A DNA stretch of 64,000 nt from Siniperca chuatsi (lineage: Eukaryota; Chordata; Actinopteri; Centrarchiformes; Sinipercidae): assembly GCF_020085105.1 (NCBI RefSeq), contig NC_058045.1, positions 11,355,833-11,419,832 of the forward strand, in the 5' to 3' direction. Shown one piece after another: positions 1 to 63,030 of this stretch. The position numbers were made by a program, and so were the translations under genes. Within the stretch, counting starts at the first letter, position 1, and each line of letters opens with the position of its first letter. The notes under the pieces were generated by a model. That model saw only the letters and a program-made list of their open reading frames with translations, was not told the origin of the DNA and did not search any database.

Positions 1-1273
1 TGTCTCCCTTGAATGACACAAGTGCCTTTTCCCCCCCTTCTTTTTCTTTTTCTCTGTCTCTTAAAGGCTAGATCACAGCTGCTAATAATAAGCTCACATT
101 GCATTTGTGTTTGTTAGATCAGATGTTTGGTTCAAGGACATCATGACAGTACAAACTAATCAGCCTCCCAACTGGCATTTACCAATGTCCTGTTTTTTTT
201 TTTTTTTTTAGAGATTGGTGATAACAAGTAGAACAGGACGTAACTGGTGATGTAGTGTGACGGCATAGATATAATGGTATTTTGCCATTTAGTATGTCCT
301 CTGCGCTCCAGTTGAGCAATTTCCAACACACTGAGTCATAGTTCACTGTGTTCCTTTAGGCAAAGTCCTACCTAACACTGTTTGTGCTTGTGACTCTCAC
401 TCACATGAAGGGTTTGCCAGGTTTAGGTAATGAAATGATTAGGCTCTGTAATTATCTTGAATATGATACAGGAGAGTTCTATGGTTGTATTGTTAGGCCT
501 TCATTTAATCCAGTACAACAGGTATATTCTACTGTAAATACTACCTTTTGTAAAACTTGTAATACTGTGCAGAGAGGCACAATTCAACTCCCCTCCAGAC
601 ATGTTTTAAGACATTTCACAATACTCTTCAAATAATAATTTGTGTCTGATGTGGTTTTCCTACAAAAAAGTTAACTTAGTTAAAGATTCTTAAAATGACA
701 TCCACCCCTTCTCCCACTTTGAAAAATAATGAATGTGAAGACAACCTTCTATTGTCAAACTGCACATATATCATTCTGCACAGTGAAGGTCAAACATCCA
801 AATGAGGAAACAATAATACAAAACACATTTTTGAGTGAAAGGCAACTTTAAGTCTCAACAGCAACCGAACATTTTAACTAGGGAGGTATTTATTGCAGGG
901 CTGTTGTATTGCAGTACATTTTGGAGATGTTTCTCTTTTTTGTATCACTCAGTGGGTATCTGTATCTGAGAACTAGGCCAGGGCAGTGTAAACATCTGTC
1001 TCAGTCCAGTGCTTGCTGCCTGTTGAGAGCCATGACAGATGGAAAGGGAGCGTATGGCTCAAACACTTCCATCTTTGACCGTACCGGCAGTTGTCTTCCC
1101 AAAATAGCCTGCACTCCACGGCCTTATATGTGCAGGCCTCCAGCGTGCGCCTGAGGAGGCATCATGTATCTAGGCCACACAATACGGGCTGCAGGCTCAT
1201 TGTTGCTGCTTGCCAGCAGGCCTATCACTGCCACAGGGACGAGGCCTCTCTTTCTGCCTAGGGACAGCTCACC
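1..1273. other. Upstream flank of fbxl22, no gene seen
   Basis: No open frame here resembles a protein I know. The stretch holds a poly(T) run near 190-210 and AT-rich sequence, then becomes GC-richer after about 960. The last 200 bases presumably include the promoter and 5' UTR of fbxl22. In human the neighbour on this side is USP3, so part of this could be its 3' UTR, but nothing in the sequence proves that. Confidence 0.5.
1099..1131 (+). promoter_or_regulatory. Two CArG-like sites upstream of fbxl22
   Basis: CCAAAATAGC at 1099-1108 and CCTTATATGT at 1122-1131 each differ by one or two bases from the serum response factor consensus CC(A/T)6GG. They lie 140-175 bases before the start codon. 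FBXL22 is known as a cardiac and skeletal muscle gene, so SRF control is plausible, and the second site could also serve as a TATA-like element. This is inference from short motifs. Confidence 0.3.
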
Positions 1274-1611
1274 ATGCATCTCACCCAGCTCAACCGCGAA
1301 TGTCTCCTCCACCTTTTCTCCTTCCTGGACAAGGACAGCCGGAGGAGTTTGTCCCTTACCTGTCATCAGCTGCATGAGGTCTTCCTAGACCCCTGCCTCT
1401 GGAATCTGCTCCACTTCAGCTCCCCATGTCAGCTGAGGAGGGACAACTTTGTGCTGGGACCCTCATTGCGCTACTTGACTATTTGCTGGTACTCCAGCAG
1501 GGTCCTGCAAGTGTGTAACATTGAGGACTGGTTGAAGAGCTCGTTTCAGAAGGACATCTGCAGTAAACATGAAAGCCTGGTCAGCACTTTCCTGGCCCAT
1601 GTCTGCCACAT
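1274..1611 (+). CDS. fbxl22: fbxl22 coding exon 1 (F-box)
   Basis: Encodes residues 1-112 plus two bases of codon 113. It includes the whole F-box and the conserved CWYSSRV and [10 protein letters not shown] segments. The donor is CACAT|gtgagtgt. Reading through the donor would stop at once after a Met, which supports splicing here. Confidence 0.92.
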
Positions 1612-4600
1612 GTGAGTGTTTGTGTGTGGTTATCCCCTGCCTTGTCGTGTATTTTGGAATGACAGCTGAAGAAATATTTTTTTCTAATGGTCAGTGAAGA
1701 GATAGACCAATAGAGGGTGTACAAAACAACACTGGTACTTTAAGCATATTGTAATATAATCTATATCAGTGGCTTTTTGGCTTGTGACCCCTTAAACAAA
1801 ACAATTGTGACTTGTCGTAACCCATGTATATAGGTTGGAAATAACTTTTTGAGTTCTCAAGAAGTAAATTATCATGTGATTCACAAGAATAAAGTTTAAA
1901 TTAAATTAGAAGCTAACATGAGTAGCTTTAAGTCTTTTCCCCGTAGCTGTTTTTCACAAGATGATGCTAAAATATATTAGCATTGAGCCCGAGGTTTCAC
2001 AGTTTTGTGTTACACATGAACATTCAAACTTTTTTGTCTTAAAAAACTTAATTACTTTTGGTCAGATGTGTACATAATTTCCAGTATCATTCACACCCAC
2101 CACAGGGGAACAAAATTGTTTTCATTTAGAGGCACATGTGAACTGAAACTGCCATGTTTAGCTGTAGGCAGCAGGGAACAAAATCATTAGAAACACATGG
2201 TGTATCCGGAGCTGGCTATAGAGACAAAAAAAAATTATACATCTGCGGGACAGAAGACTTATTCTATTAACTAACATAACTGTGGTCAGATATCAAATTA
2301 TATTTATTGAATGATGTGACAGTTGGATTTGATAGGCCACTAAAACGTAGCTGTATTGGCTTTTGGCCTTGTGTGCGTGGCTGGCTGCATGCAGGAATCA
2401 GCCTGGAGAGGCATAATGAGGTCTCTGGATAATTTCTTCAAGGCAGCCAGTAATAACCGTTGATGTGAGGGAGCCTGGCCACCGCAGCTGGCCAGGGACA
2501 AGAGGAGGGAAGAGGGGCTGGCTCACTGGCTCAGTGTATGACCCTGTGAGGATTTCCTGTATTGTGAAATTTGAGACGCAAGACATGAGCGCTGTGAGAC
2601 CAGTCAAAACTAGAACCACCTACTTTGTCTGGGTCCTGTGTTTCAACGCCCTTAAGGCACACTCATTGCATACTGATAAACCCTCCCAAATTGTCTAAGG
2701 GAGAGGAAAGCAAGTGCACGTGACAAAGTGGGAGGGGACGCAGGGAAGCTGTGGGGGTGATAAAGAGTGATTTGGCTGCAGACCCTCCCAGTCAGCTGCA
2801 GACTGGAGATTTACGCAGGCAGGTGGAGCCTACAATTGGCTCTTTGTTGCTGTCAGAGGAATGAACATGTGCGTCTGTCTCTGCCTGCCTCTTCCTGGAT
2901 AAGACTCCGAGCAAACTCTGACGCCAAGCTCATGTCTGTCTTTTTATCTGCATGGAAAAAACCATAAAATACAGCATGTCTTTGGGCCTCTTTATAGTGT
3001 CGTTTCCAGTGTAATGCTCCTCTAATGCCAGATTAAATCAATGATCAAGAACTGAGTTTTGAATTTTGATTATCTTGAGGTCACAGTATTAGAATTATAT
3101 AACATGAATTAACATGCTCAACATGCCATGTAGTGTGGGTTGCACAGTGGGTGGCAGAAGAAGCTTTGGCATGAGGCTTTTAAAATAAATATTTCTTAGT
3201 AGTTTCATTCCAAAAAATTGATATGCACCGTTTGAATAAATTGATGCTTTTTCCCTCAAAACAAGTGCAACCACGTCTTGGGTCACTATTTAAGTTATAA
3301 GTTAAGACAGCTGCTTTTGAAAATATTCACTACTAAATTTAGATAGTTTAAGATGTCCAAAATCTGTCTAGCATTTTTGAAACAAACCAAAGCAGCTGAA
3401 TGTTAAATGTACATCTTAGTTCCTTTTAGATTTCACTGGATAATTTGACAAGACAAAATAACAGTTAGGAAACCAAACAGGTCATTAGAGAGATGATTAC
3501 AGGTTAGCGGTGTGGTGTTCTGCTTGTGCTCAGCTAAGACCAGACTGCCCTCCATGCTGTTTGTTTTTAGTGAACTACATCATGTCTCAAACCTAAATGG
3601 AAAGAAGGAAACACTGCAGACATTTTTGTGGCATACAGTACAGATGGATAGATAGGTACATGAGCAAAAATCAAAGGTATGAAGTATGATGAAAAACCAC
3701 AATAACAGCACACTAGATTATTCTTGTGTTGTAAATGCCACATTGTGATTTGTTGTATTTTGTCTCACATTCCAAAGAGCTGCAACTGTACTAGAAACAG
3801 AAGATATCAGTGGAATAAACCTGCTGCGGGGCAAAAACATTAGTATCTTGCAAAACAATGAACAAGGCAGGACACAAACAAAAACAGCCCAGATGAGAAA
3901 TTCCTTCTACATACTGTATGTAGCTGCTTGTTTTTTTTAATAGTGGTGGTTGCGTTCTCTGACAACCAACTTGCTCTTATAATTGATCAAAATGTAATTT
4001 CTTACTATTTTGAAAAGAAAAAAAGTTTCAGATTTTAATGTTAAAGCCTTAATAGTAGCTGCTGCATTCCTGTAATTAGTAAAAGTTGGGAAATATTGAT
4101 GGAAAACTATTTTATAATAGGGCAAATAAAGAAAGCCACCAAAAGGATGAGTTTACCACCACAAGAGGTGTTATGAGCCAGTTCCCTGATGTGCCTAAAA
4201 TTAAACATTACTAAATGTGTGTATGTGTGTGTGTGTGTGCGTGTGTGCGCGCTTGTGGGCATTTGTGTGTAAGAAAGTAATTTTTAAATGAGGACAGATT
4301 AAGACAAAGTGGCATGCATAATTTTAATTTCAATGATAATTTTATGCTTTGGTAGAAAAAACAACACACACACACAAATATCTGCTCAAAGAGAGGAAGG
4401 TGCATGAGAGGATGGATCATGTAACAAAGGTTGATGTAGTTTTTATTCCTACTGTACCGTCTATGCTGAGACACACTAACTGAAGTCATTAGAAACGACT
4501 GAATCTCTAAATGCTTTGAGCTCTTGTTATTCTATCACCCCACCTCCTCTCTCTTTTTTTGGTTAATGTCAATACCGTGCAATCACATTCACTGATAAAG

Positions 4601-5755
4601 CCCCACATTGGCCCATGCAACAATGTGACGGGGCACGTGGATTGACTGTGTTATTCCATGTTCAGAGGTTACTGGGACAGTACCCTCAGTACTTGCAGGA
4701 AAGTGGAATATGTTTGGCTCACATGTGGTGGTAAGTGGTAAGATTATGTAAGTGTTTATGTAATCTGTATCAGTGAACGTGAATGACATCCTCGATCCGT
4801 TGCCATCAAAGTGTCTGTCTGCCAGCTCTATACTGCCGGCCTGCCAGTAGGTTGCAGTGCTCTCCTGATACTGGCTGGAAACATGCAGTAAACACATGCA
4901 TTTAACAGCAACAATTCACATTCGTTTTTAGAAGTCATTCCTGCAAAAGGCATGAGAAAATGTATTTTTATCATGCTATAGTTCATCAAACATCCTGTAA
5001 TTGTTCTGTGCAATAGCACCATACTCCATTTACTCACAAAAGCTTTTTAGAGGACAGAAACGCATATTCCCAGTGGGACAGTGTGTAGAAATAGCTTGGT
5101 CTAGGTATAAAACTCCTCTATCGTTAAACAGATCATGTTTCTGCCCCTCTGTGGTGTTGTTTACATCTCATTTACATATGGCTCAGATCAGGCCCCCCAT
5201 CTATACGCTCTCCTCTGTTATCTGATTCTATTCAAGAGACCTGAAGTGTATTCATCAGAAAATAAGCATACACACCAAACAAAATTGCTTACTAGTCCTT
5301 CTACAAACAAACTAATCCCTGCCAGTCTTATCCTGGTTATACTCCAACACATGTGTGGAAACCTGTCATTAGTTAATGATGTTACTGACTGCTGTCTGTG
5401 CCACAGGTGTCCCAACCTGCTCTCGCTGACCCTGTCTGGCTGTGGACACATCACTGACCAGGATGTGATCTCCATGCTGCAGAGCTGCAGGAAGCTGCGC
5501 CGCCTCCACCTGGAGAACTGCGTCCGCATCACCAACTGCAGCCTGGAGGGTGTGGCGGCTCATGGAGACAGTCTGGAGGAGGTAAAGGTGGACTTCTGCA
5601 GGAACATCACTCAGGGTGGGCTGCAGGCTGTCAGAGAGAAGAGGCCGGGCGTCCAGCTGAGTGCAGAGAGGAGCGCTGATATGATCCCAGACAGCAAGCC
5701 TGAGGAGAAGGTGCCGCTCAGGAGGACACTGCAGAAGGTCCTGCAGTTCTCCTGA
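1274..5755 (+). CDS. fbxl22: F-box and leucine-rich protein 22 (two coding exons)
   Basis: Coding exons 1274-1611 and 5407-5755 join to 228 codons plus stop. The intron is phase 2: exon 1 ends AT|gtgagt and exon 2 follows ccacag, so codon 113 is a rebuilt ATG. The F-box is at residues 1-45, beginning [20 protein letters not shown], almost the same as remembered mammalian FBXL22. Residues about 114-190 carry leucine-rich repeats with the pattern [17 protein letters not shown], then [14 protein letters not shown] and [12 protein letters not shown]22 is the substrate receptor of an SCF (SKP1-CUL1-F-box) ubiquitin ligase at the sarcomere Z-disc, with alpha-actinin and filamin C reported as targets. 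The ATG is chosen because the protein family starts exactly here. Length matches the family (about 229 aa in human). Confidence 0.93.
1612..5406 (+). other. fbxl22 intron 1
   Basis: A 3.8 kb phase 2 intron with no second gene. The part near 1750-2220 contains a phrase (ggcttgtgaccccttaaa) typical of dispersed fish repeats. A TG-rich microsatellite lies at 4216-4252. GC-rich sequence at 2390-2960 has no convincing open frame. Confidence 0.7.
4216..4252. repeat. TG/CG microsatellite
   Basis: Imperfect alternating (TG)n with TA and CG interruptions, inside the fbxl22 intron. Confidence 0.85.
5407..5755 (+). CDS. fbxl22: fbxl22 coding exon 2 (leucine-rich repeats)
   Basis: Begins with one base completing codon 113 after the acceptor ctgtgccacag, and ends at TGA 5753-5755. 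It encodes the leucine-rich repeats and a tail with [13 protein letters not shown], which matches the remembered mammalian SAAMIPD segment. GC content is well above the surrounding intron, as expected for a coding exon. Confidence 0.92.
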
Positions 5756-9189: not shown

Positions 9190-9720
9190 CAGTGATGGAA
9201 GAGGTATTCAGATGTTTTACTGAAGTAAAAGTAACAAAACCAACATGTAAAAATATTCATGCATAAGTATTATCAGAAAAATGTATTTATTTTAAAAGTA
9301 TCAAAAATAAAAGTACTCAGAATGGCCTCAGTCATTAATTTATTATACTACCATAAATGTATTATATTGTTATATTATTGGATTATTAATACTGATGCAT
9401 TCATGTATACGTAGCATTTTGATTTTGCAGCTGGTTGAGGTGGAGCTAATTTTAACTCTTTTTTTATATGTTTGGGTATTATAATCTGTAAAAATGTATC
9501 ATATTTTATAAACTCAACATATGTTTTATTTGTAAAATCTTAATTTTCAAAGTAACTGTAGCTGTCAAATAAATATAGTGAAGTAAAAAGTACAGTATTT
9601 GTCTGTGAAAAGTAGTGAAAGAGAAGTACACAGCAGAATGAAATGGAAAAGCTCAAGTACAGTACAAGTACCTCAAAATTGTTAGTAAGGTACTTGAGTG
9701 TACTTTATTTATCACTACTG
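9190..9720 (+). mobile_element. Short transposon, CAGTGRTGGAAG family, copy 1
   Basis: Starts CAGTGATGGAAGAGGTATTC with the following ACTGAAGTAAAAGTA motif, and ends TTATCACTACTG, roughly the inverse of the start. The same start or end occurs at three other places in this window. Many AGTAC and AAGTAC steps lie inside. It carries no coding capacity, so it is a non-autonomous DNA element; hAT affiliation is likely but not shown. Confidence 0.7.
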
Positions 9721-13858: not shown

Positions 13859-14373
13859 CAGTGATTGAATGTAATTAAGTACATTTATTCAAGCAAACAA
13901 TTACAATTTAGAGGAACTTATACTTTACTTACTCCACTACATTTCAGTGGGAAATATTGTACTTTTTACTCAACTACATTTATGTGATAACTGTAGTTAT
14001 ATTGCAGATAAAGATTTTACACAAAAACATATGATCATTTTGTAAAGTATGCTAAATTGTTACAGATTTAATTACCCAAGGATATATAAAGTAGTTAAAA
14101 TTAGATTCACCTTCACCAGTTGAGCTATTAAAATGCAGCTCAGACATCAGTGCAACCATAATAATTAAATAACACTCACAGGGGCAGTTTTTCTGCTTAA
14201 AGAGTACTTTTACATTTGATTCTAAAAGTACATGTTGCTGATAATACTGCACTTTCATACTTCACCTAAGTAAGATTTTCAATGCAGGACTTTGACTTGT
14301 AATTAAGTATTTTTACATTGTGTTATTGTTACTTTTACTTAAGTAAAAGATCCAAATACTTCTTCCACCACTC
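13859..14373 (-). mobile_element. Short transposon, CAGTGRTGGAAG family, copy 2
   Basis: Reverse orientation. The right edge reads AAATACTTCTTCCACCACTC, the complement of the family start, and the left edge CAGTGATTGAATG matches the family end. TACTTTACTTACTCCACTAC and TTACTTTTACTTAAGTAAAAG are typical interior phrases. No coding capacity. Confidence 0.7.
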
Positions 14374-29381: not shown

Positions 29382-29639
29382 ATACTAAATTTAGGGAAAC
29401 GACTAGAGCAGACAATCCGTGTTCAAATGTAGTCTGCTGAAGTGTCCTTGGGCAAACTCTTACATGAACCATCACAATTGTTGCTGAAACTGCTGACGGC
29501 GCCTTTACTGCTCGGCTTACTGACATGCCACAAGCCAGGCATCATCGTCCAGATGATATAATGAGGAAGAATGCCTGTAGAATGACCAAACTAGCCCTGG
29601 ATTGACTTTTTCGCCCCAGCTGCTGAAATGAAACCGATC

Positions 29640-29961
29640 CGCGTGTCCACGTGTTTGTGGCATTTCCATGTCATTTGCATATGTAAACCGTGCTCGCCTA
29701 TCGCGCCGCGGCTGCACGAAGAGAAGAAGCCGATTTGTCAGTCGGAGGCGTTTGAGGAGCAAATGGGAGAGCCGGTCCCCGCTAATCCCGCCCTCCCAGA
29801 CACGTTGCCTTGGGAGAAGCAACACGGGCCGATCGCTGGCTGTACCGTCCCCCCACTCACACACCGCACGTCCAGCACATCAGCTGCTCTCTGCCCGACA
29901 GTCCTGCTGGATTTACCGCCGAACAACGGGAGAGTTTAACCAGCCGCTCCATCCTGGGAAG
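29640..29961 (+). promoter_or_regulatory. Probable CpG-rich promoter and untranslated exon 1 of the ciart-like gene
   Basis: Sharply CpG-rich in an AT-rich setting, for example CGCCTATCGCGCCGCGGC near 29696. It ends with a good donor, CTGGGAAG|GTAGGTTA (exon end 29961). It holds an E-box CACGTG (29648-29653), an octamer ATTTGCAT (29673-29680) and an E'-like CACGTT (29801-29806). Frames that are open through the donor reach a stop within a few codons of the next exon, so this exon is untranslated or carries only an upstream frame. The start of transcription is unknown. Confidence 0.55.
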
Positions 29962-30718
29962 GTAGGTTACCCTCGCTGATCCGCATCTCACCTTAATCAT
30001 CAGACCATCCTGATAAACATCAGTGATTATAAATGTGTGGAGGTAATTTTATTTCTAAAATCATCCACAGGAATTCGACTCAGACATGATGATGGCAAAT
30101 AAGCAAACAGTTTGTGTCGAAGGATTAATGATATAATATGACAGATAAAGGCGTGACAGTGATAATCATTCCTGTCTGCGTTTGTGGTTTTATATAATCC
30201 AACAGTGCATGCTGCCAAATTTACTATGACTGATGAGGAAGTCTATTGTGTCTGTTACCCAACTGATTTCAAACCTGCATTTAGGCGGATAGATCGAAAC
30301 ACTCACTTTGTAATTTTATGATTTTTCTCTTGGGAAAGATAGTGATGTTTGATCTCTGGAAGAGGGGATTATTCTCATATAATTCATGTTTATCACCGTT
30401 TTTTTTTGTGTGTATATGTGAAGTGGTGGGCATCTCTATTCATGTGCCCCACCTACACAGGTAGATGGAGACGTGGAGATCAAAGGCTATCTGAGTATGA
30501 GTGTATTTTATCAAAGAAATGTGTGTCATAAAAGCATATCTGTAACTAGAAGCTGTTATCAGTAGTGCAGCAGCAATTTAAATTTCTCTCTGAATCACTG
30601 AAATACTGCAGGCCTATGTGATGCATTCAAAGGCCCTGGACTGTGGTAGTGTGCATTGTTTTATGACAGAAATCAAATTAATGCTAAAATGAAGTCATGG
30701 CACTCACTTTATACCATA

Positions 30719-30724
<6 letters not shown>

Positions 30725-30781
<57 letters not shown>
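30725..30781. repeat. (AT)n microsatellite
   Basis: About 27 perfect AT units, followed by 60 bases of degenerate AT-rich sequence, inside presumed intron 1 of the ciart-like gene. Confidence 0.95.
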
Positions 30782-30784
<3 letters not shown>

Positions 30785-31544
30785 AAATAAATAATATTGA
30801 TAATATAATAAATAATATATAATATATACAAAGTTTGATAACTTTGCACTCGCAGATGTCCTGAGTTCTATTAGATAATATATATATTATATAGAGTTAT
30901 ACATTTAGTTATACATATTAGACCTTTGTGTATTACTTTATACTTGTGTGATGTTGTTACATTAATAAAGCACCATCTGGTAGAAGATACATATTAGTTT
31001 AATCAAATCTTTGATTCCAGACATCTTGAATCTTGATACTGTATAATTTCAAGCTCTCAGTATTTGCATATAAAATACACTCAGCATTTTATTACAGCTG
31101 TTACCCCCTGTTGTGTGGTTGCCCGGCCACTACACAAACATTTTCTTTGCACACTGTTTTGTTTTCACTAAAACTGGTCAACTGTGGTCTCTCCTTCCCA
31201 GGAGCCATATTATAACCTGAATTTTTTTTTTTTTTATTTGGTCTTTTCTGTGTTATGTTAGAGCTGGTAAAATCAGTAAATCTCTGCTCCACCCTCCTCT
31301 GTAACAATAACATCAGACCTAGGGAGCAATTAACTTTCCGACCCTCAAACTTCACAGGAGACAGGAGACATGCCAGGTGTTAACCACTCAAAACCAAAAA
31401 TAATCCTTGTACCTAAAATGCTGTTCTCACTTCCTTTATCTACTAACCGCTGATTAAACATAAAGATCCCACAAGCAATTAAGCATCTGTGCAGATCATT
31501 TTTATTCACGAGGCATTCTTTGTGTCAGTCACTCATTTTGAACC

Positions 31545-31546
<2 letters not shown>

Positions 31547-31586
<40 letters not shown>
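31547..31586. repeat. (CA)n microsatellite
   Basis: Perfect run of about 20 CA units in presumed intron 1 of the ciart-like gene. Confidence 0.95.
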
Positions 31587-31587
<1 letters not shown>

Positions 31588-32279
31588 GTGTCACATGTGT
31601 TGATGGGAGATCTGCAGTCTGAGGCACTGGTCGTCATGGTGGCAGACCCCTGCCCCCTTTGAATAAACATGCCAACAATGTTTATGAATGATTGTGCTGG
31701 TAGCAGCTGGCAGGCTTGCTGATACAGCCTGAATGGCGAAAATTACTCCAGCTGGCTGATTGTAAAATGGCGAATTTTTTTTTTTCTTGTGTGACGTCAT
31801 GATGTGGAGATTTATAATGACAATACTTGTAAGAGACAAAGATTAAAGTCCTTGAGTGCTTGAGGGCTTTGCAGGATCATTGTGGACACTAGGATGTTTG
31901 GTGTTTGCTTTTGATGGTGGCTAGCCCGTGTTTACTGGCTCAGGTGTTGCATCTGCAAAACAAACAGGTCATTGTGGTCTCAACAACTGTGGTCTCACTG
32001 CCACCATCTGCTCAGAGTGCTCTGCTGTGTCTCTACCTTTATTCATGCCTGCTTGGTTAGAGGTGCAGGGTTTTCACCTGCAGTGTTTGCCCAAGAACAC
32101 TTCAATAGGATATTTTGGCTGTTGTTGCATATATTTAAACTGTTATATGGCTCGAATTTGTTACTTTTTAGCTACAGTTGTCTACTTCTCATCTTCATCA
32201 CTGTGCTACCTACTGCTTTTTACGCTTTGCTGTATTGTTGAATTATAGTAACCGTGACTTTCTGTCTGTCAGGTCAGTG

Positions 32280-32297
32280 ATGGTCAGTGCTAGCTAG
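32280..32297 (+). other. Five-codon upstream frame before the ciart-like start
   Basis: ATG GTC AGT GCT AGC TAG lies 16 bases before the main ATG and after the acceptor at 32272, so it would be present in the mRNA. It may lower or tune translation of the main frame. Confidence 0.5.
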
Positions 32298-32312
32298 AGC
32301 CTGCAGCCGAGG

Positions 32313-32732
32313 ATGTCTGCTACAGATTCGGACAACTCCATTGACTGGCTGGCTAGTGACAATAAGGACAATGAGAGCGAACAGGAGTCTGACTGTACCA
32401 AAAAGCACAGCCAGACAGAGGCTCCTCAATCCCCCAGCACCCCGCCACACCTGGGCCCGTCTGACAGCAACTGCCGCCAGTGCAGCGAGGTGAAGGAGGG
32501 CATCAGTAACTGGAGCAAGGTCAGGGAGGCCTCCAGTCGGGGATCTCCCCCCAGCTGCACGGAGACATGGGACAGCGCCACTGGACTGTGTCGAACGCAA
32601 CAAGGAGAAAAAACGAATGGCAAAAACACTCAGCAAGCACTGAAGAGACCTCACAGCTCCACAGAGGAGGGGTGCGAGGAACGGCAGGTCATTACCAATG
32701 TGTCAGAGAAAAACCGAATTTTCAGCAGCAAG
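32313..32732 (+). CDS. ciart: ciart-like coding exon 1
   Basis: Residues 1-140, starting MSATDSDNSIDWLASD; phase 0 donor AGCAAG|gtgagc. The acceptor of this exon is at 32272 (tctgtctgtcag), leaving 40 bases of 5' UTR here. The segment is low-complexity, acidic and Ser/Thr-rich, with a KRPHSS patch that may act in nuclear import. Confidence 0.85.
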
Positions 32733-35700
32733 GTGAGCACCTCAGTGATAAATATATGTCAGTTACCCACAGGAGGTGGTTGACAGTGTCAGCAAAACTA
32801 GAGCATGCCCTATCATCTAGATTGGCTCCCCTGCTGGTTTTACAGAGTGCCTAATGCATGACATTTTCCAGTAAAGATGACACTCCCATACAACTTTATA
32901 AGCAGAATTAGTCATGCTTTTCTGAAGAACTAGAGTCATTCTATCATAACAGAACAGTAGGGAGTGTTAAGGTGTTATCTAAATCATGTTGAGCAACTTT
33001 TATAATAAAATGAACAGCAGTATGTGGAAGCCAGTTTGATATCAGATTTGAACAGGATTTGAACATGTTTTGACAGAGATATCACCTACAAACTAATCTA
33101 TTTTGATTTTCAGTGCATGGAGCTACAATGCTACATTCATCCACTGTCATCTATCTTGAATGGCCTTCGTTCAGGGAGATACAGAGGACGTAAGTCGCAC
33201 ATTTAATATCTTTTCTGTTTTTGTCTTCAGAAGAATCACAGTAGATTCATACTATTAAACACAACCGTTTCCTACACCTCTGTCTCTCTGTCTGTCTCTG
33301 CTCCTGTTTTTCTTGTGTCTCAGAGAAAACAATAGACTGGATAGACAGCGTGCCACTCTATGGAATATGTGTCCCTGAGATTTGAGAGTGTGATTTCTGA
33401 AACATGTATTGTTGTAGGACTATCAAGTAACCACAAGTATTTCCTGTGTGTGTGTGTGTGTGTGTGTGTGTCTATCTTTTAGAATGGAGCTAATTTGGGG
33501 TAAAGGTTCACTGTTTCAAAATGTCCCTTTTAAGAGTTAAATGTTATTTTTATAGTTGTGAAAAAGCAATGTCACACTTCAGACTTCCTTGTAAATTAGC
33601 TGCTTGGCCGAGGCGAATGAGAACATACTGTACCACAGTCTCCAGTAAAGCAGCTGCTGTTTGTGAGTCGTCTGATAGGCATTATAAGGGTCTCTGGAAG
33701 GTATCGCCATGTTCAGACAGGATCTGAAAACTGCCTCATTTGGGATCTTTGTCAAACCCAAACCTTGTGTGACCCAACACTTCCTGGCCACAGAGGAGGA
33801 GTTCCCTAACACACACACATTTCACACAACCCATATGCTCCACAGACTCAGCCCTGCTGTCAACACAGTTCCTGTGGCTCATAGTACAACTTTCTTCTTT
33901 TCCAGGACTCAGCAGTTTCCAGGAGAGTGTGGCCATGGACAGGATTCAGAGGATCATGGGTGTCCTGCAGAACCCTTGCATGGGGTAAGTGTCCTCAGCA
34001 TGGCCCACATACTGTTATACATGAATCTTAATCAATCAAATAAATTTTATATGGCTACATTTATATAGCTCTTTATTCCAAAGCGCTGTATAAGGATTTT
34101 GCCATTCATTCAACCATTTATGCTTCCTCTGATCAGATTCAATACAATAGCTAGAAATTGGGTTTGCTGTCTGTGGATCAAAATGGTCTACAACATGTCT
34201 GGCTCACAGCAGGTTGCACTGCGAGGAGCTGCTACCCCCACACATTCAGGATAAATTTACTGCAGAAATGGCTGGCTCTCACTGTAGCTGGGCATCTTGT
34301 TAAAAATGTATCAAGCTCCACTGTGGGAGCAGCACAGTTGTGTCTGCTTGATTAGCTCTCCACTGGCCAGATGGTATAATGAAGGATGGTATCAGCCCTC
34401 TAAAGGAGAAAGTCTTAGTCCCTGTAATACAATCATTTTTTAAATGTTTTGATAGTTTACATTTGTTTTACATCATAAAATAGCAAATTTTATGGTATAA
34501 ATAAGAATACTTTCTAATAAAATGTATATGACAATATACAGTATAACATTTCTGAAAAATGTACATATAGAATAATAAACTGATGTCATGCGCCATTTAC
34601 TTGACATTTTAATAGACAGAAAACTAATGCAACTAATAATTATGTTCTTTATTGATTCATCACTCGGAATTTATTAATTTTGTCTATAAAATGAGTCCAA
34701 TATGATGTCTTCAAATTGCTTGCTTTGTCTGACCAACAGTCAAAAACCTAATGGGATTTCATTTACATTGATAAAAAAAAAACAGATCATATTTGAGAAG
34801 TTGGAACCAGTGATTATCAATTATCAAAACTGTTGTCAAGCTATTTTCTGTTGATTGAGTAACCAAACGATAAAAATAATCATTTGAGCGCTAAATTGGA
34901 CAACAAAATTTTATAGAATAATAACACATCATGATCATATCACCACAATGTGATTCCACTGAAAGTCTATAAATGAAATAGCAACTTCATGTACCATTTT
35001 CTTCTGAATTTAAAGCTGCACTACTGGTACCTGTATGGGAAGCAAAGTCTGTCTTGTCTTTGTATCAAGGTATACTAATATCAAATAAAGTGCTGCTAAG
35101 TTTGGCACAGACTAATTGGAGCCCTCGCCCACCAGCTGCTGCCTTCATATGGGAGACAAAGAGTGGGTGTGGCAGCCTCCCTGCAGACAGCCAGGGCAGA
35201 GGCTGGAAGGTGGACTAAACCCCTCCTTCCCTCCCTCCGCCACTCCCTGTGCCTGCTATGTGTTGCCAGCTGGCAGCCCCTGCAGCAACACAATGGTAGA
35301 TAGGATCAAAGTGACTTTTTTAGCAGTCACTGTTGCGGATAATCTTTCACATGAATTTAACATGCTCTGAATGGAGTATAGCAGAAAGGTCCTGATTATA
35401 TGACATGGGCTAATCCCCTAAACCCAACCCACCATCTGATTTTGATGGGTGGGAGTTAATGGGAAGTTGCTCTCTGCTGCCCAACTCCAATGATAACTGC
35501 GTCACCATGACTAGTTTATGTTCATAATGACGCTATTGGAAGACCGTTGTGGCGTTGGTGTTTATATTTAGAGGCGAGCAGAACTGTTATACATCAGGCC
35601 ACATGCAAGCTCAAAACATGTGAGAAATGTACTTAAGACAATTTCCCCTCCACACATAGAGCACAGTCTCTGCTAAGTGAGTGTATATGTTCACTCACTG

Positions 35701-37267
35701 TTCAAGATTGCTTATTTCCTGTGTGAGCTTGATGGAGAGATAAGATTTCAGAGAAGAGGTTGGCAAGATACTTGATAGATTACTCAGATTCACGCATGAT
35801 GGCATGAGTAAATATTTTTCTTTCTCTCTCCCTGTTTCTTTCTCTCCACCTCTCCATCTTTTACCTTTTCAGGGAGAAATATATTAATATCATTCTCAAA
35901 ATGGAGGAAATGCTGAAGAGCTGGTTTCCTAATGTAAAACTCCAAGACCAACTCGCTGTCACCCAGACAGAGGAAGCCGTTCCTACCAAGAAACTGAAGG
36001 TAAAGTTAAAAAAAAAAGCAGAACTGTTGTGTAAGAACTCTTCAGTTAGACAAGGCCTGCTGCCAATAACCTATGGTGATGACGCAGTGAAAGAGGGACT
36101 AAAATATCTATTATTATTTAATCACAGGTCTGGGACAGGGAAGGGAGGATTAAAAGCTATTTTTGCTGAGGTATTACTGTAGTCTCAGGTTTGCTAAGAA
36201 CAATGACAGAGGAGAAAAGATAATCTTGGAGGATTGTCCCTAAAGGGATAAGAAAGGTCAGAATACTCTGGAACATTCCTTTGCATTTAATTGGTGAGGA
36301 TTTATTTCTGTGGCTAATCCTGACACACCCTCCAATAAACAGGAATTTCATGTACCATTTTATTTTCAGTCACCACAAAGAAGCTGTTTTGCACTTATAT
36401 AACTGGTCATAATGTTAGTTAAAGCTGCTATAATCAGTATTTTTATATTAACAATGGATGAAATTAATATTCATAATGTGAAAGGGGTCGCTCATCGTGA
36501 CAAATCCACAGAGAATTATCACCCAATTCTGTAGTTCTTAGCTCTACAGAGCATTTTAGTTTCTTTCAGCTCATTGTTTTGGTGTTACAGCAGCAACTTT
36601 ACTGTTTTGGTTCAGCCTCATTGCTCTCATCAGTGTTGTTTGCAGCCACAGCAGGCACATGTTTTCAGTGATAATGCTCCAATAAACCCAGTGTACACTT
36701 CCTGCCCAGCATCAAACAGCAGACTGATTAGGTTAGCACCTAGCTAGTGAACATAATGGAACAGTTAGCTGCTAAAGAGCCTGATGTTTTTCTCAGGAGT
36801 TGTGGGAGACCATTGTCCCTGAATAATAAGCTACAAAATAAATTAAATTAAACTGTGTCCTTCTTTCCCAACAGCTATCTCCAATGAGCACCACTGCAGC
36901 CGTGAGCCCCGTCACCATAAGTGATCTCCCAGCCGGCGCCAAAGCCCTGAGAGTCACCGACCTCACTCCTCCTGGAGCCTACTCCGCCAGTAACGTGAAG
37001 TGGCTCCACACATCACCCATCTGCTCCCCCACAGCAGAGCAGGCCCAGGCTGGCCCCAGGCACCTGCTGTCCCCCAGAGACAGAGACCTAACGCAGGACA
37101 ACTCTGTGTCCTCCAGCACAGACAGCCACACTAAGACAGACTTGGTGCCCAGAGGCCCTCCGCCTGGCAAAATCAACGCGCCCTGTCTAGAGAGGCTCCT
37201 TAAGTCGACAGAAAGCATCATCACCCGCAAGGGGACGGGGGGTTTGATGGACAGCAGCTGGTCCTAG
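32313..37267 (+). CDS. ciart: CIART/CHRONO-like circadian repressor (five coding exons)
   Basis: Exons 32313-32732, 33114-33189, 33906-33984, 35873-35999 and 36875-37267 join to 364 codons plus stop, with intron phases 0, 1, 2, 0. The diagnostic core is residues 141-215: CMELQCYIHPLSSILNGLRS, then LSSFQESVAMDRIQRIMGVL, then MEEMLKSWFP. Remembered mammalian CIART has nearly the same LSSFQQSVAMDRIQRIVGVL segment. A second match is VKWLHTSPIC near residue 280. The N-terminal 140 residues are Ser/Glu-rich and look disordered. CIART binds BMAL1 and represses CLOCK:BMAL1 transcription in the nucleus. Human CIART is 385 aa. Teleosts can carry more than one ciart copy, and which one this is cannot be told here. 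Confidence 0.9.
33114..33189 (+). CDS. ciart: ciart-like coding exon 2
   Basis: 76 bases between ttgattttcag and GGAC|gtaagt. It encodes CMELQCYIHPLSSILNGLRS plus GRYRG, the start of the conserved helical core. Too short for a simple frame scan; found from the family pattern and splice sites. Confidence 0.88.
33445..33471. repeat. (GT)n microsatellite
   Basis: About 13 GT units in intron 2 of the ciart-like gene. Confidence 0.92.
33906..33984 (+). CDS. ciart: ciart-like coding exon 3
   Basis: 79 bases from tcttttccag to ATGGG|gtaagt. It encodes the most conserved part of the family, LSSFQESVAMDRIQRIMGVL followed by QNPCM (residues 167-191). Confidence 0.92.
34020..34110. repeat. LINE/SINE tail-like fragment
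   Basis: ATTTATATAGCTCTTTATTC followed by CAAAGCGCTGTATAAGG is a phrase seen at the 3' ends of many fish retroposons. Only the short tail is present. Confidence 0.4.
35873..35999 (+). CDS. ciart: ciart-like coding exon 4
   Basis: 127 bases preceded by a long pyrimidine tract (tttctctctccctg...ttttcag) and followed by CTGAAG|gtaaag. Encodes EKYINIILKMEEMLKSWFPN (residues 193-212) and on to KKLK at 234. Mammalian CIART has the matching MLKTWFP. Confidence 0.9.
36420..36810. repeat. Dispersed fish repeat in ciart-like intron 4
   Basis: Phrases such as TTTGGTTCAGCCTCATTGCT, ATAATGCTCCAATAAACCCA and CTGATTAGGTTAGCACCTAG recall an abundant percomorph repeat. It ends about 60 bases before exon 5. 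Class unknown. Confidence 0.5.
36875..37267 (+). CDS. ciart: ciart-like coding exon 5 and stop
   Basis: Follows tctttcccaacag and ends with TAG at 37265-37267. Encodes residues 235-364, with VKWLHTSPIC near residue 280, matching mammalian WIHTTPIC, and a Pro/Ser-rich remainder. GC content rises sharply, as expected for coding sequence. Confidence 0.88.
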   Translation, partial: LSPMSTTAAVSPVTISDLPAGAKALRVTDLTPPGAYSASNVKWLHTSPICSPTAEQAQAGPRHLLSPRDRDLTQDNSVSSSTDSHTKTDLVPRGPPPGKINAPCLERLLKSTESIITRKGTGGLMDSSWS

Positions 37268-38390
37268 TCCACACAGAGGACTGCGTGTCCAGCTATAAGC
37301 ACCGCACCACCCAGCCTAGCCTTGCCCACCCTGCTGGGAGTCAGTCAGCTTGCTTAGCCCATTCCAGCCTTCGGGGGAGACGGGAGCATTAAAAAGGGAC
37401 GTCAAAGATTCCTCTTTAATGTGGAAGGAGTGAACATGTTGTACTCTCTGTAGGGGAATGTGCCCTCTGACATGACAAGTGTCTGCTTTAGTTCCCTTTT
37501 GTTGACTTATCTTTGTTTTTTGTTTGCACTCTTGAATAGTGTGTGTGAGAGTGGGAAAGATAGATTTCACATGGCTTGTAGATGCAATAATACAGTTTGA
37601 GTATCTGTGAAACTGCTATTATGCCTGAAAGGGAAAGAATTGCAAGAGTAGTTTGTGCTGGAAGGGAGTATTTCAGATATCCAGACATGTCAGTGGTCTA
37701 CATATTGTTGTGCTGAAAATGTGGGTGAAATGTGATGTTACTACCCCCCCCATGACTCCACTCTTAAGTTTATTGATGTGACTGTTACTCATTTGTATAC
37801 TTTATAAATAAGTCTTTTGGTACAACTGTTCTACCTCAGTGGGCACCACGTCACAGTTAGTGAGTAGGAATGTGAACGCTACGCTAAAAATCTGGACACC
37901 TCACCAGATCTGCAGTGAGCCACCGACAGCGAGGTTTGCAGGACGAATCGTTCTGCTTGTACAAACAGAGGATGCTCTCTCCATGGGGATGCTCTTGTGG
38001 TTTGACTGGTGCCATTGTAAAGAATGTCAACTACAGATTTCTTTTTTGAGTCTCCCAGTAGAAGGCTAACAGTGCCTGTAAGCCGGTTTGATAGAGAGAG
38101 AATTGTTCAGAATACCTGCTCCTCTGTGGGATGTACAAATCAGGAATTCTCATTCTCCTGCCATTTTCCTGTATCGAGTAAATTATTCAGATCTTGCCAA
38201 CTACTTTCTGCGGTGGAGTAGAACAATTCTTTTATTTTGCCACAGAACTGGACAGTATGGTAGACCAGCAGAGAGGGACAAGGTATTTCTCTGTGTAGAT
38301 CTTACAGAAAGGTTGTTGATTTACCCTGAAAAGTGGCCTTTATAGTGTGAAATTTTATACTTTCAAAATAAATGTGGTTATATTTGTTTG
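37268..38390 (+). other. Probable 3' UTR of the ciart-like gene
   Basis: About 1.1 kb after the stop with no other gene signal, ending at the AATAAA described next. Confidence 0.6.
38367..38372 (+). terminator. Candidate polyadenylation signal, ciart-like gene
   Basis: AATAAA followed within 20 bases by GT/T-rich sequence (TGTGGTTATATTTGTTTG), the usual arrangement of a cleavage site. Confidence 0.6.
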
Positions 38391-48240: not shown

Positions 48241-61995
<13,755 letters not shown>

Positions 61996-63030
61996 GCCAG
62001 GTGTCTTCATTGATGTAGTTTATCTTCTTGATAAGCACCACCAAAGCCTGTCTTCTTCCCTTTCTCCACCAGTCCAATCCTGCTAATACAAAGAGGTGTT
62101 CCTGTTGATTTCTGACTGGAACGATGAAAATGTTTACTACATGTTCCAGCTTGCTGTATAGCATTCCATCTCAGAGTTGTACCTACTTTCAACAGTCTGT
62201 TGAGAAAGCCTCAACACTATGTACTAAAAAGTACACCTAGTCTGTCTTTCAGTTGTCTAAATACAGATTATTGGATTTAAAATTTAATATTGTACAACTC
62301 ATTCAGCTGTGCCAAACTGGGCAGTATAACAGTGTTTAGTTTGTGTGATTATAACAGGATTACAAATGAAAAGAAAAGAGCATTTTGAGTAATTAGGTCA
62401 GGATATCTGTGAAATTTGTTCCTGTTGTGAAACGTTTTGGCTGGTAAAAAGGCTGACATTGAAAAAGCATACACTTTGTAACTATTAAAAATAAAAATGT
62501 TTTACTGTTATGAAATAGAATAGTAATTGATTGTGCACTATAAAGGGTGAACACTTACGTACATTTGTGAAAACAAAAAGCTGTTCACAAACTGAAATAC
62601 CACAAACATCCTATCTGGTCAGTTTCATGTCACATTTGATATGGCTCTACAAACTAACTGCAACCAAACCGTATGGCTTACCTTCTGTCAGATGCAGAGC
62701 TGATGATAAACTTGCATCGGTTCCCCCGTCTCCTACAGCTGGTCTGGTCTCATGGTTACAGATCAGACTCAAAACTACTTGTTTAGTGTCTCTGTTGTTT
62801 TCTGTTACTTATGGCAGCACCATCAGGCTTTTGTGTCTGCAGAAGTCCCTCCCCCTGATGGCTCTATTATGAAAGTGCAGCATGAGAGAGGCAGGCTATC
62901 AATAAAGATGACCGGCATGTCTGGTGTTTATTCTGAACAAGCATATAAGGAACGGAGCATTACTACAGCGAGCAGTTTTTTTCTGCTTCTTACAGTATGA
63001 ACACCCACAGACGAGACAGAACACACTGAG
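61996..63030. other. dapk2 upstream region, no other gene seen
   Basis: Expected to hold the dapk2 5' UTR and possibly its promoter, but no CpG-rich block, TATA box or clear upstream exon can be pointed to. Open frames at 62531-63000 on the plus strand do not resemble proteins. Confidence 0.45.

Follow-up and report, generated by a model that had tools for sequence, protein, structure and literature searches.

A ciart gene beside dapk2 in Siniperca chuatsi probably belongs to a second vertebrate line of the clock repressor CIART

In this study, a stretch of 64,000 nucleotides of Siniperca chuatsi DNA (the window; NC_058045.1, positions 11,355,833 to 11,419,832, here C4:11355833-11419832) was found to carry an intact gene of the CIART (CHRONO) family between fbxl22 and dapk2. 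We consider it very likely that this gene represents a second vertebrate CIART line, linked to ca12 and dapk2 and of the 15q22 type, which split from the 1q21-type line of human CIART before ray-finned and lobe-finned vertebrates diverged, most probably through the genome doublings early in vertebrate history, and that its product represses CLOCK:BMAL1. The teleost doubling would then have given each ciart line two copies, resulting in four genes in S. chuatsi. From within this one genome, the reading as an ohnolog is well supported: two ciart lines are present, both are doubled, and the two are linked to different members of an older gene pair.

Four ciart genes form two pairs

The genome (718.8 Mb, 65 contigs) was searched with the Ciart profile PF15673 at E values up to 10. 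Matches were found at 14 places, and 12 of these fall in four loci, on C4 (the window), C1, C9 and C17, with three matching exons at each locus; 5 of the 12 places score above the cut-off of the profile. The two weak places elsewhere, C17:17.65 Mb (E 4.1) and C19:12.03 Mb (E 8.0), were taken as chance matches. When the C1, C9 and C17 genes were read exon by exon, each showed five coding exons in an open frame, as the window gene does, and the intron phases (0,1,2,0) are identical across all four. The profile scores of the C9, C4, C17 and C1 genes were 168.9, 139, 138.3 and 133 bits, respectively. Because open frames and the same intron phases are found at four loci, retroposition was rejected as the origin of the copies, and the open frames likewise speak against any of the four being a pseudogene.

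The four fish proteins and a human CIART sequence, checked only by its length and the position of its nuclear localization signal, were compared over a core of 72 alignment columns, in which none of the five sequences has a gap. Identity within the pairs was 59/72 for C4-C1 and 53/72 for C9-C17; between the pairs it was 45/72, 39/72, 41/72 and 37/72 for C4-C9, C4-C17, C1-C9 and C1-C17, respectively. When the columns were resampled 2000 times, C4-C1 identity exceeded C4-C9 in 1993 resamplings and C9-C17 exceeded C4-C9 in 1895. The N-terminus MS[AT][TS]DSD[NY]SIDWLASD and the tail (KWLHTSPICS, CLERLL) are common to C4 and C1, and neither was seen in C9 or C17. In the FastTree tree of the five sequences, C4 and C1 were split off with a support of 1.000, their branch being long (0.49 for the core), and C9 and C17 were grouped with a support of 0.894 in the core and 0.937 in the whole alignment; midpoint rooting by hand, with five sequences and no outgroup, puts the root on the C4+C1 branch. 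Thus, C4 and C1 are one ciart pair, and C9 and C17 are the other. Core identity to this human CIART sequence was 58/72 for C9, 48/72 for C17, 45/72 for C4 and 44/72 for C1. Human-C9 identity exceeded C4-C9 in 2000/2000 resamplings and C9-C17 in only 1684/2000.

Each pair has its own neighbours

A genome search for carbonic anhydrases gave matches at 70 places. One gene, at C4:11.3238-11.3286 Mb, lies outside the window and 60 kb to the left of the window ciart; its joined exons scored 287.9, 245.1 and 198.7 bits against CA12, CA14 and CA9, respectively, so that it is of the CA12 type. Another, 15 kb away from the C9 ciart, is of the CA14 type, with 239.5 bits against CA14 and 217.8 bits against CA12. 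On C1, a carbonic anhydrase match was found at 13.7 Mb, 10 Mb from the C1 ciart. Since each fish carbonic anhydrase is nearer its own mammalian namesake, the separation of CA12 and CA14 predates the split of fishes and tetrapods. Because the CA12-type gene adjoins the C4 ciart and the CA14-type gene adjoins the C9 ciart, the block of carbonic anhydrase and ciart was most likely duplicated before that divergence, and the chance landing of a later ciart copy beside the matching carbonic anhydrase paralogue is unlikely.

Two further gene families were considered. Tropomyosin matches (E up to 1e-6) occur on seven contigs (C1, C4, C6, C9, C13, C17 and C18), which include all four ciart chromosomes, at distances from ciart of 0.65 Mb (C4) to 20 Mb (C1). 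We take human TPM1 to lie at 15q22 and TPM3 at 1q21, and the fish matches were assigned to neither. Because the fish genes are unnamed and the distances are 0.65-20 Mb, these matches support a kinship of the ciart loci at the level of chromosomes only. The APH1A/APH1B pair was dropped as a paralogon argument, since the genome search revealed a single Aph-1 gene; the other vertebrate Aph-1 type seems to be absent or to have been missed.

The order of genes also separates the pairs. On C1, dapk2 exon matches at 3.130-3.141 Mb (+ strand) stand tail-to-tail with ciart at 3.215-3.232 Mb (- strand), as on C4. The two genes are about 74 kb apart there (C1:3141000-3215000), compared with 13 kb in the window; the C1 sequence examined covers 200 kb, 20 kb of it N. 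The flank of the C9 ciart has an exon with a CID domain (rprd2), PRP3 and PWI exons (prpf3) and the carbonic anhydrase, and all 4 PRP3 matches of the genome are at this locus. At C17, a Ribosomal_S21 exon (mrps21) lies about 5 kb upstream of ciart, within the 8 kb upstream that were scanned. The neighbours on C9 and C17 were named from domains and sequence. The human order at 1q21 is presumably rprd2-prpf3-ciart-ca14, which the C9 order matches, and MRPS21 is presumably a neighbour of human CIART as well. The C17 upstream stretch gave no convincing coding match to the C9 flank (best E 0.04), and no flanking duplicate common to C9 and C17 was found in the stretches compared (C9, 40 kb; C17, 11.5 kb), so the pairing of these two genes rests on sequence. 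Judged from their proteins, they look like partners from the teleost doubling that retained different neighbours.

The original prediction had been that the window gene could be an ohnolog of CIART and not its simple orthologue, and it had named CA14/CA12 among the gene pairs common to the two human regions. The CA14/CA12 pair was borne out by the two carbonic anhydrases above, and the ohnolog is supported by this linkage together with the pairing of C4 with C1 beside dapk2 and the 1q21-type genes on C9 and C17.

Other origins were weighed against the same data. The two-by-two pattern points only to one duplication before the teleost doubling, and one genome was compared; a duplication in the ray-finned stem, after the lobe-fin split and before the teleost doubling, with the copy landing near ca12 and dapk2 by chance, would also fit. 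We regard this as unlikely, since the copy is 60 kb away from ca12 and the C9 ciart is 15 kb away from ca14, the nearest kin of ca12, since the introns and their phases were kept, and since C4-C9 identity (45/72) is lower than that of C9 to the human sequence used (58/72) in all 2000 resamplings. It is extremely improbable that the window gene is the simple orthologue of human CIART, brought to its present place by a translocation. Its match to the Ciart family is compatible with such an origin, but the C9 ciart stands in the 1q21-type order (rprd2-prpf3-ciart-ca14) and has the higher Ciart score (168.9 versus 139 bits), and the C9 locus already counts against a translocation unless the C9 gene is the newcomer. 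Hardly any weight is left for a recent duplication of a 1q21-type ciart, whether in teleosts or specific to a lineage, for which no supporting evidence was found: the original prediction had named nesting of the copy among the teleost 1q21-type genes as the result that would speak against an ohnolog, and within this genome the window copy pairs with C1 and not with C9 or C17 (1993/2000 resamplings, FastTree support 1.000).

Structure of the window gene and its promoter

The second-line ciart in the window has the following parts.

29636..29652, + strand: tandem E-box-like element GATCCGCGTGTCCACGT in the promoter, overlapping a canonical CACGTG at 29648-29653
29640..29961, + strand: CpG-dense stretch resembling a promoter, with a probable non-coding exon 1, from sequence and CpG count; splice donor GTAGGT at 29962
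32313..32732, + strand: coding exon 1, N-terminal region, which includes SIDWLASD
33114..33189, + strand: coding exon 2, first portion of the core, CMELQCYIHPLSSILNGLRSGRYRG
33906..33984, + strand: coding exon 3, core LSSFQESVAMDRIQRIMGVLQNPCMG, with the diagnostic peptide LSSFQESVAMDRIQRIMGVL
35873..35999, + strand: coding exon 4, end of the core (MLKSWFP) and the KKLK basic cluster
36875..37267, + strand: coding exon 5, C-terminal region with WLHTSPIC at residues 277-284, and the stop
37268..38390, + strand: probable 3' untranslated region, with AATAAA at 38367

The coding sequence (32313-37267) has five exons joined by GT-AG introns in an unbroken frame of 364 amino acids and a stop. PF15673 matches residues 110-287 of the protein with 139 bits (E 2.6e-40, cut-off 27), and no Pfam family besides Ciart was listed at E values up to 1. 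The window ciart is an intact CIART/CHRONO gene and had been described earlier as a five-exon gene of CIART type with two diagnostic peptides, spanning 29640-38390. Both peptides were found, LSSFQESVAMDRIQRIMGVL and MLKSWFP being encoded by coding exons 3 and 4, respectively; the five exons held in the refined form of five coding exons and a probable non-coding exon; and the span fits, with the promoter-like stretch and the donor at 29962 at its start and AATAAA at 38367 near its end. This AATAAA is the only one in the stretch scanned past the stop (37268 to about 38500).

CACGTG occurs 8 times in the window, including the promoter copy at 29648. When a 17-mer from the C9 promoter was searched with up to 3 mismatches in 315.5 kb (20 kb of it N), it was found only at C9 itself and in the C4 promoter, with 2 mismatches. 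Both copies of the element lie in very CpG-rich surroundings, whose CpG count was reached in 5/1272 stretches for C4 and 3/792 for C9. Upstream of the C1 and C17 genes there are canonical E-boxes that lack the 17-bp element, and the CpG counts of the C17 E-box stretches were reached in 3/223 and 13/223.

Predicted function of the window protein

The consulted part of PMC7177903 reports that residues 111-264 of human CHRONO repress CLOCK:BMAL1 and that a version two residues shorter does not; by subtraction from that text, the shorter version ends at residue 262. CIART/CHRONO has a helix-rich middle domain (human 111-196) with flexible flanking ends. In the human sequence used, the border of repression presumably falls within WIHTTPIC, residues 260-267. 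By sequence, the motif across this border is conserved in the window protein, as WLHTSPIC at residues 277-284; C1 has the same motif, and C9 has WVHVAPIL. In the alignment of the five sequences, no W-x-H-x-x-P-I motif was found in the C17 protein, and the C17 gene may have lost or changed repression. The core of the C17 ciart (C17:10801079-10802963) is more diverged, AIDRLQRILGILQ.

A basic cluster of classical type, K[KR]x[KR], occurs at one alignment column in all four fish proteins, near the join of exons 4 and 5; in the window protein it occupies residues 231-234 (about 35988-35999). Human CIART, unlike the window protein, presumably has no such cluster at this column and has KRSR at residue 95 instead. 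The fish cluster is a putative nuclear localization signal (NLS). According to the consulted parts of PMC7177903 and PMC11599456, human CIART is 385 residues long with the NLS PGPIRCRHRSKVS at residues 59-71, and prediction tools detect no classical NLS in human CHRONO (PMC11599456). Mouse Chrono is described as a BMAL1 target in the part of PMC3988004 consulted.

Because the core, WLHTSPIC, the basic cluster and the promoter E-box are kept, and in view of the mammalian experiments, the window protein is most likely a nuclear, E-box-driven repressor of CLOCK:BMAL1 that binds the C-terminus of BMAL1. For the window gene, BMAL1 binding, repression and rhythmic expression are all inferred by analogy with the mammalian gene. 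In this model, CLOCK:BMAL1 would turn on the window ciart through the promoter E-box, and the protein would enter the nucleus, perhaps by its KKLK cluster. The presumably helical core with the WLHTSPIC extension would then bind the BMAL1 C-terminus, keep CBP off and repress E-box genes, which would add one delayed negative-feedback arm.

An ohnolog whose clock role was lost or changed, for example one with another partner or with an action outside the clock, would be consistent with an N-terminus (SIDWLASD) and most of a C-terminus that differ from the 1q21 type, and with the absence of the human NLS peptide. We think such a change doubtful, with the core, WLHTSPIC, the basic cluster and the promoter E-box all kept.

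Several points weigh against the assignment of the window gene to an old second CIART line with a kept clock role. Its dating rests on linkage and on CA12/CA14 within this one fish genome; the observations that speak to an age before the fish-tetrapod split are the CA12/CA14 kinship and the core identities of the four fish proteins to the human CIART sequence used. An unrooted tree of five sequences without an outgroup cannot place the root. The human CIART sequence was checked only by its length of 385 and the published NLS at 59-71, and the human gene positions used for the linkage argument are assumed. Around the loci, the genome searches gave no carbonic anhydrase match on C17 and no C1 match for a 115-amino-acid leucine-rich repeat (LRR) piece of fbxl22, and the 40-kb C9 flank gave no match to mrps21. 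The single Aph-1 gene lies on the chromosome of the C1 ciart (C1:4509980-4514748, 4.51 Mb). In the promoters, the C9 element (C9:13021044-13021060) has the opposite orientation relative to its gene from that of C4, and the C1 E-box stretches are not unusually CpG-rich, with 104/3579 and 559/3579 stretches reaching their counts. The human NLS PGPIRCRHRSKVS is absent from the window protein.

Comparison with known CIART genes

The window gene is like mammalian CIART (CHRONO, Gm129) in its Pfam Ciart core, in LSSFQ.SVAMDRIQRI.GVLQ.P.MG and WFP, and in W[IL]HT[TS]PIC. It is unlike mammalian CIART in its core identity of 45/72 to the human sequence used (58/72 for C9), in its N-terminus and tail, and in the basic cluster at residue 231. 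It also stands beside ca12, fbxl22 and dapk2, unlike human CIART, whose neighbours we take to be CA14, MRPS21 and PRPF3. With the C9 and C17 genes it has in common the five coding exons, the phases 0,1,2,0 and the column of the basic cluster, and with C9 also the promoter element; it differs from them in its neighbours and in a between-type core identity of 37-45 of 72, and from C17 in having the W-x-H-x-x-P-I motif. CIPC, PER and CRY, which also repress CLOCK:BMAL1, were considered as functional parallels only. The consulted parts of PMC7177903 and PMC3988006 name CLOCK:BMAL1 as the target of these repressors.

In 2014, Chrono was stated to exist only in mammals (PMC3988004), and the companion paper called CHRONO unique to the vertebrate genome (PMC3988006), both according to the parts consulted. 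Zebrafish, with ciarta and ciartb, likewise has at least two CIART genes, and neither was assigned here to a line. The two genes appear together in the expression study PMC5397488, and ciartb appears in PMC11884735; the consulted parts of these papers do not mention the origin of the copies. Among the matches listed, papers on fish ciart name the gene, and none sorts the copies by origin in the parts consulted. The main text of a spotted gar survey of clock genes (PMC6723592) has no word starting with ciart or chrono, and the consulted part of a salmon clock-gene paper (PMC7575087) has no ciart in its listing. No paper was found that treats ciart as an ohnolog or links it to whole genome duplication in salmon. 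No literature on a second CIART line was found among the matches listed, as far as their consulted parts show, and such a clade may already be present in gene-tree databases; judged by the literature searched, the question seems open.

If the second line is real, two CHRONO genes belonged to the clock of ancestral vertebrates, and mammals use half of the set. The two lines would offer a natural experiment on which parts survive in both (the core, W-x-H-x-x-P-I) and which do not (the human NLS, the N-terminus). The fish labels ciart, ciarta and ciartb may then mix two non-orthologous genes. We also speculate, and would put the chance at about even, that a second CHRONO line from the early vertebrate doublings was lost toward mammals and still represses CLOCK:BMAL1 in fishes, with its own SIDWLASD motif and with a classical-type NLS, which mammals would have lost and for which they would have substituted a non-classical one. 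The clock of fishes would then run with up to four CHRONO proteins, of which the human-type protein of C17, lacking the W-x-H-x-x-P-I motif, may have ceded repression to the others.

Neighbouring genes in the window

The location of ciart between fbxl22 and dapk2, as first proposed, agrees with the domains and position of the left neighbour and with the best kinase score of the right neighbour.

1262..5752, + strand: fbxl22, left neighbour, with an F-box exon in 1262-1612 and an LRR exon at about 5408-5752; named by domains and position
50517..62019, - strand: dapk2, right neighbour, in tail-to-tail orientation with ciart; DAPK2 is its top-scoring PDB sequence, and exon pieces are common to C1

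In Pfam, the left neighbour matched F-box-like with 29.4 bits, above the cut-off, and LRR_6 with 22 bits, below the cut-off of that family. The 115-amino-acid LRR piece gave 8 matches in the genome, one full-length on C4 (in the window) and seven weak and partial. Against PDB sequences, the kinase of the right neighbour scored 477.2, 462.4 and 453.4 bits with DAPK2, DAPK1 and DAPK3, respectively.

Between fbxl22 and ciart, the inverted stretches 9191-9617 and 13935-14372, about 4.3-5 kb apart, are 71-79% complementary in four pieces and may represent two old mobile elements in inverted orientation.

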